From positions 1 to 22,240 of the IMG/VR virus record IMGVR_UViG_3300038466_000061: a stretch of DNA of 22,240 nt; one strand, written 5' to 3'. Under the pieces are notes generated by a model that was given only the letters and a program-made list of their open reading frames with translations, did not search any database and had not been told where the DNA came from. The translations under genes were made by a program, and so were the position numbers. This document shows, one piece after another, positions 2,883 through 18,870 of this stretch; the first letter of the stretch is position 1, and each line of letters begins with the position of its first letter. The DNA comes from a virus.

Positions 2883-3943
2883 GTGATCACTCCCAAAGTG
2901 GCAATTTCACCCTGATCATGAATTACATCGGCAACAGGGCTTACCAGCACATGATCTGTTTCGCCGGCCGCGATGCTGATGGCTTCTCTGATGTGGGAGA
3001 GCAGGATCGTTCCCGCGCCGTTTCCGTCTTCGGGTATGGCTTCCCGGAGCAGCAGGTCTCTTATTTCCGTTTCCACAGCTTCCTGTACGGCCGCCGTATT
3101 AGGCGTCAGCTCGATCGTCAGCGCCAGCGGGACCGCCACCGGCGCCACGACGGTCACATCGGCCGTCACCGGGCGCACAGTGTCAAGATAGGCCTGAACG
3201 ATCGCCACATCGGCCGCCTGGGGAATGCCGTCGGCATAGGCGTCATCCATCATAAAGCGCACGGTTACCGTGCCAAGCCCGAGTTCGGCCGGATAGACCC
3301 AGGCGCGCGTTACACCGGCCACCTCCAGCGCCCAGGCTTCGTAATCAAACTCGGCGCCTCCATGAGGCGGTTGCTGTATCCTGGCCAGCAGTCGCACCAG
3401 CAGCGCTGCGTCGGCTTCGACATCGACGCCTCCTGAGAGCCCTTCCGTTTCCACCAGCGCAGTTGCATCGATGCCGGCGATCGGGTTTACCAGAGTGAGC
3501 TGGCTGCCGGCCGGGGTTTTCCCGTCCTCGCCGGCTGCTGCGGCCGTGCAGGCGACAGTAGTTGTTCCGGCTGCAACTGTCCCGTCAGCATCGGTTGAAA
3601 ATTCAGCCCCGTCCGAGCGCTGCAAAACAGTGCCGGCCGGGATCGTCACCCCGTCAGTACCCGAAAAGGTGATATCTCCCCGGGCGGCGGCAGCCGGTTT
3701 TCTGAATATTCCCCAGATCGAAGCCCAGCGCTCCAGGTACTCGGCCTCGGCGGTGTCCGGTATGATCTGCTTTGCCAGAAAATCAAGATGCCCATACAGC
3801 CCATGGGCCGAGCCGGCCATCACGCGGGACAGTACATTCAAAAAGCTTCGCCTGAGTTTGGCATCTGCTCCGGTCAGGCGGCTCTCGATATCGGCGGCAA
3901 TGCGGCCGATCAGATCGGTCAACAGCGGGCGACTAAACGGCAT
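2873..3943 (-). CDS. Baseplate J-like protein, Mu gp47 (Y)-like
   Basis: This 356-residue protein is a Mu gp47/P2 J baseplate wedge protein. The N-terminus has PLLTDLIGRIAADIESRL and EAEYLERWASIWGI (about 69-82). The centre has the FSGTDGVTIPAGTVLQRSDG beta block (93-112) with GEDGKTPAGSQLTLVNPIAG. The C-terminal half carries the conserved PPHGGAEFDYEAWALEVAGV stretch with VTRAWVYP, and a PVTADVTVVAPVAVPLALTIEL region. It links the inner baseplate to the tail fibres. It overlaps both neighbours by about 10 bases. The length is standard. Confidence 0.93.
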   Translation of the reverse strand: MPFSRPLLTDLIGRIAADIESRLTGADAKLRRSFLNVLSRVMAGSAHGLYGHLDFLAKQIIPDTAEAEYLERWASIWGIFRKPAAAARGDITFSGTDGVTIPAGTVLQRSDGAEFSTDADGTVAAGTTTVACTAAAAGEDGKTPAGSQLTLVNPIAGIDATALVETEGLSGGVDVEADAALLVRLLARIQQPPHGGAEFDYEAWALEVAGVTRAWVYPAELGLGTVTVRFMMDDAYADGIPQAADVAIVQAYLDTVRPVTADVTVVAPVAVPLALTIELTPNTAAVQEAVETEIRDLLLREAIPEDGNGAGTILLSHIREAISIAAGETDHVLVSPVADVIHDQGEIATLGVITWA

Positions 3944-15352: not shown

Positions 15353-15850
15353 TTACGCCCGGCCGTATTTTTTCAGATCCTCGGCGGAATTTCCGAACAT
15401 GCCGGCGATTTTGGATTGATCGGCGTTTAGCGCCAGGCCCTTGTCTTTATCCGGATCCTTGCCGTCGAGATCTGACGGTTTGCCGATCACCGGCGCTGTT
15501 GTCAGAAACTTTTCAAACTCTGCCAGCCCGCCTTCCTGACGGCACATGGCCGTATAATAATCCCTGGAGGCCGGGACGATCTTGCCGGACTTGACCGCGC
15601 CGTCCACGGCCGCTGTGACCGCCGTTTCCAGATCGGTCTTGTTGCGCTCGGAGAGTTTGGTCTCGGCATTGGTTGCCCGGGCCACGGCCGCGTCGTAATC
15701 GGCGCGCGGCACAAACTTATCAAGACTCGGGGTTTCGGCCCGGTTCAGGGCCGTTTGCAGGTCTCCCTGCAGTTTTTTAACGGCATTGGTCGCCTGCTCT
15801 TCGGTCGCCGTCTCGGCCAGGCCGAGCAGGATCAGTAAATTTTTCCACAT
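15353..15850 (-). CDS. Internal in-frame scaffolding protein (Mu gpZ-like)
   Basis: Inside the protease gene, an ATG at 15850 (residue 207) is preceded by a textbook ribosome binding site, AAGAAGGAGATTCTACC then ATG. Translation from it would give a 165-residue protein identical to the scaffold domain of the longer product. Mu makes its scaffold Z in just this way, from an internal start in gene I. The product begins with a hydrophobic MWKNLLILLGL stretch and then becomes Lys/Glu/Asp-rich helix. It would direct capsid assembly and later be removed by the protease. The SD strength is the direct evidence; the Mu parallel supports the role. Confidence 0.75.
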   Translation of the reverse strand: MWKNLLILLGLAETATEEQATNAVKKLQGDLQTALNRAETPSLDKFVPRADYDAAVARATNAETKLSERNKTDLETAVTAAVDGAVKSGKIVPASRDYYTAMCRQEGGLAEFEKFLTTAPVIGKPSDLDGKDPDKDKGLALNADQSKIAGMFGNSAEDLKKYGRA

Positions 15851-16468
15851 GGTAGAATCTCCTTCTTTTTTAAGTTGCTGTTGATTTAGCGCCGGAAGCG
15901 CAAGGTTTGGTTTGTTGACAAGGGCCACGCTGCTGATGCCGCGAATCCGGCCGCTGCCGATTTCATAGATCAAAACCGGGGAAATATATCGATACTCTTT
16001 GCTCTCTACCGAGGCCCACCCCCGGTCGGTCCATTCGAAGCGGCCCCAGATTGCGCCGTCTTCGCGGGCCTGCATCTCTTTGCCCCAGGCGGCGGCCGGA
16101 GCCGGGAGTCCCTGGGGCGCCTGGAGTTCGGTGGCGTGCTCCCAGTCGAGCGGAAGCTGCCGGCCGTCCTGCTGAAAATGAGTTACGATGCCGTCGGGAT
16201 TATCGTTCAGCCAGGTTCGGCCGTCATGGCCGGCGACCACCTGTCCGGGAGGTATGAGCTCGATCCATTCGGGCACGCTGCCATCTGCCGGAAGCTGAAA
16301 ATTTAAGGCCAGTCGCTCGCACCCATCCGGAATTTGCTCCGAATTGGCAGCGCCAGTCATCAGGATCGGCCCGTAAAGGGTGTCAAGAGGTGTCATAACA
16401 TGGGTGTCAAGGAATCCCGGTACATTCCTGTGGCTTTTTCCGAGATCGTCGCTTGTAGGGCCTCTCAC
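15353..16468 (-). CDS. Prohead protease, Mu gpI-like, with scaffold domain
   Basis: The 371-residue protein combines a Mu gpI-type maturation protease (about residues 50-195) with a C-terminal scaffold region (207-371). Family-typical stretches are LPLDWEHAT (105-113), the PAAAWG segment, a GAIWGRFEWTDRG block (138-150), YRYISPVL (159-166) and the domain-closing SSVALVNKPNLALPAL. The C-terminal part is charged helix, as expected of a scaffold that is degraded during head maturation. I chose the GTG at 16468 because AAGGAGG lies just upstream and it overlaps the preceding stop as GTGA. The 50 residues before the protease core are longer than I expect, so a later start cannot be excluded. Confidence 0.88.
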   Translation of the reverse strand: MRGPTSDDLGKSHRNVPGFLDTHVMTPLDTLYGPILMTGAANSEQIPDGCERLALNFQLPADGSVPEWIELIPPGQVVAGHDGRTWLNDNPDGIVTHFQQDGRQLPLDWEHATELQAPQGLPAPAAAWGKEMQAREDGAIWGRFEWTDRGWASVESKEYRYISPVLIYEIGSGRIRGISSVALVNKPNLALPALNQQQLKKEGDSTMWKNLLILLGLAETATEEQATNAVKKLQGDLQTALNRAETPSLDKFVPRADYDAAVARATNAETKLSERNKTDLETAVTAAVDGAVKSGKIVPASRDYYTAMCRQEGGLAEFEKFLTTAPVIGKPSDLDGKDPDKDKGLALNADQSKIAGMFGNSAEDLKKYGRA

Positions 16469-17280
16469 GAATTTCCTCCTTTTTGATAATCGGCAATATC
16501 TTTTCTGGCCGCTTCCGCGATTTTGGGATCGGCATCGGCAAGTTTCCCCTGCATGTATTTATCCAGGTTCTCTTTCCGCTTTCTCCCGGGGTTGGTGTCC
16601 CATCCGGGATCGATCCCTTCCGGCACCATCTCGGTCTTTCCGGTGCGCTTGTTGACCCACTCCACTTTCTTTACCGCCGGATCGGAGCTCACCTGCCAGT
16701 TTCTTCGCGTCATCTCCACCCTGGAGATCTGCCGCACCCGTCACTTTCAGCCCCAGCCGTTTGGCGGGTAATGGCTTGACCAGAATTCATGATCGACCGG
16801 CAGCGTCAACCCATCCCAGGCGGCATGCTGCAGGCGGTGGTTTTCACTTGGCCCGAGCCCGTAGCGGAAGTAGGGCAGCGCCTGTTTGGTGCGCTGTGCC
16901 CGCTCCCACTGACCGGCCGCCCGGGCGGTCCGCATGTTCGCGTTATAGATCACCTTGAGCCTTCGCGGGCTTCCGAGCTGCGCGCTGATCACCTCGCCGG
17001 TCTCCGGATCCACCATCTGTTTGCGGCCCCACCAGCCAAGTTTTTGAAGCGTCGGCGTCAAATTCTTTTTGAAATCCCGCAGCGTCTGTCCGTCCGCAAT
17101 CGCCTGATCGATGGCGCTCCTGATGGCTGTCAACACATCGAGCTGGATGGCTTTGGCCACAGTAAACGCAAACGAATGCTCATAGCGCCAGACATCCCGG
17201 TAGTCGAAACCGATCTTAAAGCCTTTGTTTCTGAAAAAGGCCAGCACGTCTCTTGGGACCGGTCCGGGAAAGCTGATCAT
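16465..17280 (-). CDS. MuF-type minor head protein, probable selenoprotein with two in-frame UGA codons
   Basis: Residues 1-177 form the Phage_Mu_F (gp30/SPP1 gp7-like) domain: YNANMRTARAAGQWER at about 112-127 and HAAWDGLTLP at 152-161, closing with HYPPNGWG at 170-177. In the family the last motif continues as a Cys-x-Cys pair and a basic strand. Here the same frame reads UGA-Lys-UGA-Arg-Val-Arg-Gln (UGAs at 16749-16747 and 16743-16741). It then runs open for about 90 more residues, including WVNKRTGKTE and PEGIDPGWDTNPG, which belong to the usual MuF C-terminus. The end meets the next gene in a GTGA overlap. UGA acts as a normal stop elsewhere in this window, so recoding to selenocysteine at residues 178 and 180 is the best reading, helped by the stem-loop listed separately. 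Total length is 271. Conventional calling would give a 177-residue truncated protein plus a separate ORF from a GTG at 16737. The protein is a minor capsid component associated with the portal. Confidence 0.85.
16706..16743 (-). promoter_or_regulatory. Candidate bacterial SECIS stem-loop
   Basis: On the minus strand, after the second UGA, ATCTCC (16728-16723) and GGAGAT (16717-16712) form a perfect 6-bp stem around a 5-base loop AGGGT (16722-16718). A lower 4-bp helix can form between TGCG (16736-16733) and CGCG (16709-16706), with one G-U pair. Eighteen bases separate the UGA from the loop, the same as in E. coli fdhF, and the loop carries G residues near its 5' side as SelB-binding SECIS loops do. 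It lacks the bulged U of fdhF; that base is paired here. The same element is 24 bases from the first UGA and could serve both. Confidence 0.68.
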
Positions 17281-17298: not shown

Positions 17299-18870
17299 CT
17301 ACACCTCATCGGTCGCATCTCCCATGCCGCGGGCTTTCATCATTGCGGTCGCCAGAGTATCGGTCAGCGCCGCCGGGTCCTGCTTTTCAAAAAGTTCCGG
17401 AAGCCGTTCAAGCAGATCGGACAGTGTCCCTCCACGGGCAATCACATCATCGATGAGCCGTTCAACCGGATCGATCAACGATGTCATGACCGGCTCCCAG
17501 TCGGATAGCTCTTCATCAGTCAACGCATCAATCGCGTCACCGGCATCGCCGTCATCGGCGGCTTGCGCATTGCGTGCAATAGTCTCCCTGTTTTGCGCGG
17601 AAGAGAGATCGGGTATCGCAGCCGCCGGCCTCAGCAGATCTTCGGGCTTTGCCCTTTTGTCCGGGTCCGGCAGACCGAGTTTGTCCCGGATCACGCTCTG
17701 CTCGACGCGCAATCCCAGAGGAACCAGTTTTGCCAGAGACTCGGAAAGCGCCGTGATGTTTTCCGGCTTTGACGCCCGCAGATGTACGGTGGGGTAGTTT
17801 TCCTGCGGGCCGAAGTTGAGATCGATATATGCCTTAATCAAATCCCGGTTGATCGTCTCCTCGATCTGCTCGGCATCATCATCGCGAATATCTTCGCGCA
17901 CCTCCTTTTGCGCCTCTTCATTGCCCAGTTTACCGGGGGTTCCCTGTGTGGTAGCAGTCTGGCCTAAAATTCCGCGCGATACCTGGGCATCGAGATAATC
18001 GGCCAGGCGCTGGAAAAAGTCCGTGGATCCCGCTTTCTGAGCCTCCTTAAATTCGACGTCCATAGATTTAGGGAATATGGCCGCGGCATCTGTCCCCAGA
18101 TTGGCAACCGCCATTCTCAAAACAGCCTTATCCTCCTCGCCGGCGCCGGGATCATAGCGGCCGATTCTAAACGGCATGCCGAATACCTCTGCAAATGCGA
18201 GCCAGTCTTTAATCGTATAACCCTTGCACATCCAAGCCCAGGCGGCAATCCGGGCGATACCGCCCCGTATCGGGATGCCGCTTTTTATTTTGGGAACATG
18301 CCGGATAAAACAGAAAGGCTCCAGCTGGATCCCGTTCATGAGATCGGCATCATCCCGCAGCCGGATTTCGGTGCGGCTCACCTGGTCGAAGGTGAAAAAG
18401 TGAGGATCACGCCAGGTGTATTCCCTGGGCTTCCATTGTGCTCCGGAGCGGTCCCAGCGGATCTCGCAAACGGAAAAACCTTTGCCGAGCCCGTCTAACA
18501 GATCCTTTATGAGACCGCGGAAACCCGGTTTTCGCACGAGGCCGCGCACGGCATCGGCCAGATCGACGTCTTTCTGGTCATCGCTGTAAGACTCCACAGT
18601 GACCGGCAGTCGTGAGACGGCCAGTTTTCTTTTGGACAGTTCACAGGCATAATGCAGGTCGCGTTCTTCCATCTCTTCCGCCAGCGTGAGATACGCGCCG
18701 TGGTCGTTGTCGGCGGCGCTGCGCAAAATAGAGGCCAGGCTCTGCGGTGTAAGTCCGCCGGCCACCGTTTCCGTCCAGATGGTGCGGATGCCGGTAAGCT
18801 GCGGAGCCGCGTGCTCGCGTGTAAGCGCCTGAGTGCGGACAGGGCGGCCATATGCGTCAAGAAGTGCCAT
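17299..18870 (-). CDS. Portal protein, Mu gp29-like (DUF935)
   Basis: The 523-residue protein has the DUF935 pattern: an N-terminal LTGIRTIWTETVAGGLTP region followed by a mixed core. The core includes DLLDGLGKGFSVCEIRW at about 100-116 and FCFIRHVPKIKSGIPIRGG at about 155-173. It ends in a long acidic helical tail. It is the dodecameric portal through which DNA enters the head and to which the neck attaches. Gene order (large terminase, portal, MuF) is the standard Mu order. The length agrees with the family. The C-terminal 60-80 residues are rich in Asp and Ala and probably flexible. An 18-base gap with an AGAGG ribosome binding site leads to the next gene. Confidence 0.92.
   Translation of the reverse strand: MALLDAYGRPVRTQALTREHAAPQLTGIRTIWTETVAGGLTPQSLASILRSAADNDHGAYLTLAEEMEERDLHYACELSKRKLAVSRLPVTVESYSDDQKDVDLADAVRGLVRKPGFRGLIKDLLDGLGKGFSVCEIRWDRSGAQWKPREYTWRDPHFFTFDQVSRTEIRLRDDADLMNGIQLEPFCFIRHVPKIKSGIPIRGGIARIAAWAWMCKGYTIKDWLAFAEVFGMPFRIGRYDPGAGEEDKAVLRMAVANLGTDAAAIFPKSMDVEFKEAQKAGSTDFFQRLADYLDAQVSRGILGQTATTQGTPGKLGNEEAQKEVREDIRDDDAEQIEETINRDLIKAYIDLNFGPQENYPTVHLRASKPENITALSESLAKLVPLGLRVEQSVIRDKLGLPDPDKRAKPEDLLRPAAAIPDLSSAQNRETIARNAQAADDGDAGDAIDALTDEELSDWEPVMTSLIDPVERLIDDVIARGGTLSDLLERLPELFEKQDPAALTDTLATAMMKARGMGDATDEV

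Follow-up and report, generated by a model that had tools for sequence, protein, structure and literature searches.

Does a phage head gene end at its first UGA?

A 22,240-base virus record from IMG/VR (the window, meaning the whole stretch of DNA analyzed) contains the gene for a MuF minor head protein with two in-frame UGA codons, which raises the question of whether these codons end the protein or are decoded as selenocysteine (Sec). From the comparisons described here, it appears highly probable that both cysteines of the closing Cys-x-Cys motif would be made as Sec, with the SelB of the host decoding the UGAs at a hairpin 3' of them.

Two UGA codons at invariant cysteines of a MuF gene

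Mu-like head and tail genes lie on the minus strand of the window, as do all window features given below. An open reading frame (ORF) that starts with ATG runs from 17280 to 16747 and encodes 177 amino acids up to a UGA at 16749-16747 (residue 178). A single AAG codon (16746-16744) separates this UGA from a second one at 16741..16743 (residue 180). Past UGA180 the MuF frame continues for 91 codons (residues 181-271; 16468..16740) and closes at a TGA at 16467-16465. If both UGAs are read as Sec, the gene occupies 16465..17280 and encodes 271 residues, an assignment based on the frame, Pfam, PHROG, alignment, and predicted fold. The terminal TGA shares bases with the GTG at which the next gene starts (GTGA, 16468-16465), and the AAAGGAGG site of that gene sits within the read-through frame. 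A preliminary description of this DNA had claimed that the frame passes through UGAs on both motif cysteines, continues as a MuF C terminus, and closes in a GTGA overlap with a ribosome binding site inside the frame; all of this was borne out, with 91 residues following UGA180.

The gene after MuF (15353..16468) is a putative Mu I-type head protease/scaffold, judging by position and sequence alone, and the gene upstream (17299..18870) is, by gene order, a putative Mu-like portal; the order is the same in a prophage of a Nitrospirae metagenome-assembled genome (MAG) (G002). Elsewhere in the window, an ORF at 121-762, whose start is not clear, resembles by eye a D12-class DNA adenine methylase (DPPYYG).

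The preliminary description had suggested aligning the 271-residue product with Phage_Mu_F proteins. The product matched Pfam Phage_Mu_F (PF04233) over residues 52-182 (E value, 4.6e-18), and its score of 66.4 bits against a curated cutoff of 29.6 places it within the family. PHROG 220 (minor head protein and DNA pilot) matched residues 9-262, on both sides of the UGAs (E value, 1.9e-88), and the sole NCBIfam match was to a general minor capsid model, TIGR01641, below its cutoff. Both UGAs fall on columns that are invariant cysteines (Cys1 and Cys2) in 46 aligned relatives. The region after UGA180 is conserved in Cys and Sec relatives and includes a VPxGIDPGWDYNPG-type motif. Like Mu gpF and SPP1 gp7, with which it shares near full-length homology, a PPNGWG-CxC motif, and a portal-adjacent gene, the protein is a clear Phage_Mu_F member; the members retrieved mostly have Cys-x-Cys, whereas both positions in the window are UGA and predicted to be Sec.

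The predicted structure of the read-through product had a mean pLDDT of 87 and was confident on either side of residues 178-180. No match was found in a PDB sequence search with the MuF product, and Foldseek and VIA-align gave weak, uninformative matches only, so that the predicted structure is uninformative on the chemistry of the Cys-x-Cys motif.

UGA recurs at the cysteine columns of MuF genes in other phages

A protein search of IMG/VR returned 80 relatives with Cys at both positions in all, because the cysteines formed part of one search pattern. The preliminary description had also proposed a search for homologues that carry UGA at these positions. When the same collection was scanned with patterns that placed UGA at one or both cysteines and the hits were compared by blastp, 38 further contigs emerged with UGA at a MuF cysteine, 22 at Cys1 (UxC), 14 at Cys2 (CxU), and 2 at both (UxU); two bacterial genomes, described below, are added to these. 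The MuF E values for the 38 contigs were 8e-29 or better, compared to 0.03 or worse for chance matches. Nearly all were homologous to MuF both before and after the UGA, and most carried on into the family C terminus, including the GIDPGWDYN-type motif. Several of the variants were found in separate metagenome assemblies. A second protein search, with patterns outside the Cys columns, detected the motif at 42 loci; in 7 of these, a Cys column held UGA and the inspected stretch was free of other stops, a proportion enriched for UGA members because the search was centered on one. No phage-borne tRNA-Sec was found in the window or in the 38 UGA loci, which are fragments.

A MuF tree was built without the Cys-x-Cys columns. 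On this quick tree, which has many weak branches, at least 16 Cys/Sec switches are required. The double Sec of the window is not adjacent to that of the other double-Sec sequences (L100/L112), and its nearest relatives are CKC, which is consistent with the earlier proposal of two independent Cys-to-UGA changes. In one small clade (L100, L148, L164, L169, L177, L182, and L239-L241), the predicted Sec position varies among Cys1, Cys2, and both, and Cys-only members fall inside the clade, a pattern that points to fast Cys/Sec exchange. The frequency of Cys forms implies that Cys also functions at both positions of the motif.

SECIS-type hairpins are concentrated in the UGA copies

In a published model, bacterial SECIS elements have a loop of 3-9 nt with a G in its first two nucleotides and a stem of 4-16 bp, lie 16-37 nt from the UGA, and have a minimum free energy (MFE) of ≤-7.5 kcal/mol (PMC13188914). 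With this limit, 26 of 30 distinct UGA sequences passed, compared to 14 of 80 Cys sequences, and in comparisons with synonymous codon shuffles the UGA set was more stable than expected (combined p, about 2e-8) while the Cys set was not (p, 0.78); for the UGA set versus the Cys set, p was 5e-10. These p values are optimistic because the UGA sequences are related and many share one hairpin by descent, so that the tests are not fully independent. The separation obtained with the published geometry was much clearer than with the MFE of the whole 45-nt region, by which UGA and Cys copies were weakly separated (p, 0.07), or with a first synonymous-shuffle test, which was modest (mean z, -0.97 for UGA versus -0.24 for Cys).

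The hairpins differ in sequence from clade to clade. In the best-sampled clade, the 6-bp stem showed 100% pairing with three compensated pairs across 15 distinct UGA sequences, compared to 66.7% pairing in 15 Cys sequences. Each of the three closest Cys relatives (L239-L241) has a change in the stem, and in two of them a pair is broken.

The candidate element of the window (AUCUCC-AGGGU-GGAGAU, 16712..16728) has a loop that begins 24 nt past the first UGA and 18 nt past the second; one extra A-U pair is possible, in which case the loop is GGG. It has the geometry of the model, with an upper stem of -7.0 kcal/mol against the -7.5 limit and -13.1 kcal/mol when the lower stem is included. The nearest Cys relative (L001) has the same residues, RVRQISRVEM, but only the codons of the window form the perfect hairpin (UCC AGG GUG GAG in the window versus AGC CGC GUG GAA for the same residues within ISRVEM). 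Taken singly, the window hairpin is suggestive but not significant (p, 0.31 versus synonymous codons; z, -1.8 versus shuffled DNA), and its strength comes from the family-wide evidence. A Cys-x-Cys sequence that adjoins the window on the tree (L003) has a partial hairpin (AUCUC-CAGGGCC-GAGAU, about 3540-3569), which may be a remnant of an earlier Sec form.

Selenocysteine genes in the bacterial hosts

GTDB genomes were also scanned for UGA at Cys1. Of the 12 matches, two were MuF genes, one in a Desulfobacteraceae MAG (L182) and one in the Nitrospirae MAG (L188). In two bacterial-genome searches, these two TGA copies were the only MuF matches with an internal stop. In both genomes, selB and tRNA-Sec scored above the cutoff. 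Because selB is common in both host classes (323 of 389 genomes in the class of L182, the genome G001, and 59 of 61 in the other), its presence indicates capability and is no test of association.

In G002, the MuF gene and selB are on one contig, and selB is flanked by apparent host housekeeping genes (RNase III, ketoacyl synthase, and aminotransferase, named by sequence alone). What appears to be the Mu-like prophage with the UGA MuF gene begins about 1 to 2 kb from this host selB (L188; L344, L345; G002:C85:24000-58000).

In a comparison that covered the class of L182, the window DNA was most similar to a prophage in another genome of that class, G216 (73% over 2.6 kb). Because the window resembles prophages of this class, its own host is probably a member as well. 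The G216 prophage (G216:C61; L338, L209) has a Cys MuF gene, and there was no selB match in that genome, which may reflect genome incompleteness. UGA was found in 1 of about 35 MuF matches in Desulfobacteria, indicating that the Sec form is a minority.

Other explanations for the UGA codons

The in-frame UGAs could terminate translation, giving a 177-residue MuF protein with a decaying remnant downstream or a distinct protein that initiates at the GTG codon after UGA180, which opens a 90-amino-acid ORF (16737..16465). This is improbable. The region 3' of the UGAs is under purifying selection (dN/dS of 0.15-0.33 versus six relatives) and is part of the family protein in Cys relatives, and in several other UGA members that place lacks a start codon. 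Neighboring codons also argue against termination: two contigs matched a pattern with UGA at the Trp of PNGWG, which is one mutation away, but neither was MuF, and the pattern scan found no MuF gene with UAA or UAG at the Lys between the cysteines. Termination would moreover leave the concentration of SECIS-like hairpins in UGA copies unexplained.

Insertion of a standard amino acid, by programmed or leaky UGA read-through or under a code in which UGA is reassigned, is less likely still. It would account for a frame that is open and conserved past the UGAs. However, several other genes in the window terminate with UGA, and the extensions beyond those stops are short, so that the genetic code is standard and a UGA-reassigned code was rejected, in agreement with what the preliminary description had held. 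A read-through signal need not fall on a Cys column or interconvert with Cys, whereas the UGAs are on Cys columns, followed at 16-37 nt by a SECIS-type hairpin with G in the loop, and sel genes are present in the two known hosts. Least likely of all is a sequencing or assembly error from TGC to TGA, which the single metagenomic contig of the window might suggest, given that there are two UGAs two codons apart, that identical UGA variants occur across several metagenomes (e.g., L163/L165/L176 and L164/L168/L171/L175) and UGA copies also in two bacterial genomes, and that nothing of the kind appears at the adjacent Trp.

Decay and sequencing error had been considered unlikely in the preliminary description, and the recurrence in 38 contigs, the Trp and Lys controls, the dN/dS values, and the confidently predicted fold of the full-length product uphold that judgment. 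Its reading of the motif as Sec-Lys-Sec is supported, at the level of sequence, by the UGA homologues, the UGA-specific hairpins, selB and tRNA-Sec in both identified hosts, and the use of UGA as a standard stop elsewhere. As expected of a selenoprotein gene, the in-frame UGAs stand at the Cys columns of homologues, with conserved sequence beyond.

A proposed mechanism for selenocysteine in MuF

In the proposed mechanism, SelB and Sec-tRNA(Sec) of the host would recognize the hairpin immediately 3' of UGA178 and UGA180 and decode both codons, after which the ribosome would translate the 91-residue C-terminal region, running into the overlapping downstream gene. We infer both the insertion of Sec itself and the presence of sel genes in the host of the window. 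One hairpin would have to serve two Sec residues two codons apart, which counts against the predicted decoding.

One to two copies of the SPP1 MuF protein (gp7) bind to the portal (PMC5576092), and by analogy the MuF protein of the window would be in the virion, bound to the portal in few copies. The Sec pair would most likely be redox active (a selenenylsulfide or diselenide) or metal binding, and Sec would be favored where anaerobic hosts make use of it, with frequent exchange for Cys. A more speculative suggestion, to which we give rather little weight, is that a phage structural protein has repeatedly recruited host Sec and that Sec-x-Cys or Sec-x-Sec near the portal acts as a redox switch, making particle maturation or DNA delivery dependent on host selenium and redox state; for instance, the pair might be locked within the virion and become reduced when the phage enters an anaerobic cell.

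Relation to known selenoproteins and significance

The UGA MuF genes resemble those of bacterial SelB-type selenoproteins in having UGA on a conserved Cys column with Cys homologues, a hairpin that has G in its loop and lies 16-37 nt past the UGA, and, in the two hosts identified, selB and tRNA-Sec (PMC13188914). UxC, CxU, and UxxU selenoproteins (thioredoxin-like Sec.1, Sec.2, Prx-like UxxU, and FmdB-like UxxU) have Sec in place of one or both cysteines of a paired motif, as predicted for MuF, but these belong to other families and are cellular rather than virion proteins (PMC13188914). Most of the 119 prokaryotic families in the same 2026 inventory have one Sec, and the double-Sec motifs listed are UxxU and the like, unlike UxU in the window; the inventory has no phage, capsid, or MuF/PF04233 entry (PMC13188914). 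The glutathione peroxidases of poxviruses (molluscum contagiosum and fowlpox) are also virus-encoded selenoproteins that use host Sec machinery, but they are host enzymes captured by viruses of eukaryotes, have SECIS elements of the eukaryotic type, and are nonstructural (PMC8310308). The word "phage" is absent from two reviews (2022 and 2026) and a 2008 survey. No report of a selenoprotein phage head was found in a literature search, nor a described function for the MuF Cys-x-Cys motif. The selenoproteome of an Olavius symbiont is reportedly the topic of a 2007 paper.

As far as we found, the UGA MuF proteins would constitute a new family of selenoproteins in phage heads and the first among phage particle proteins. 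With UGA on the Cys columns in dozens of related phages and a SECIS-type hairpin, phages with such a gene very probably incorporate selenium into one of their particle proteins. Standard gene callers cut genes at UGA, and thus annotations probably list some phage head proteins in truncated form. If the assignment is true, Sec MuF is spread over many phages, with the repeated switches counted on the tree, and the repeated replacement by Sec at either cysteine suggests redox or metal chemistry at a portal-associated site. Such phages would depend on hosts with SelB, a possible constraint on host range that could be read from sequence.
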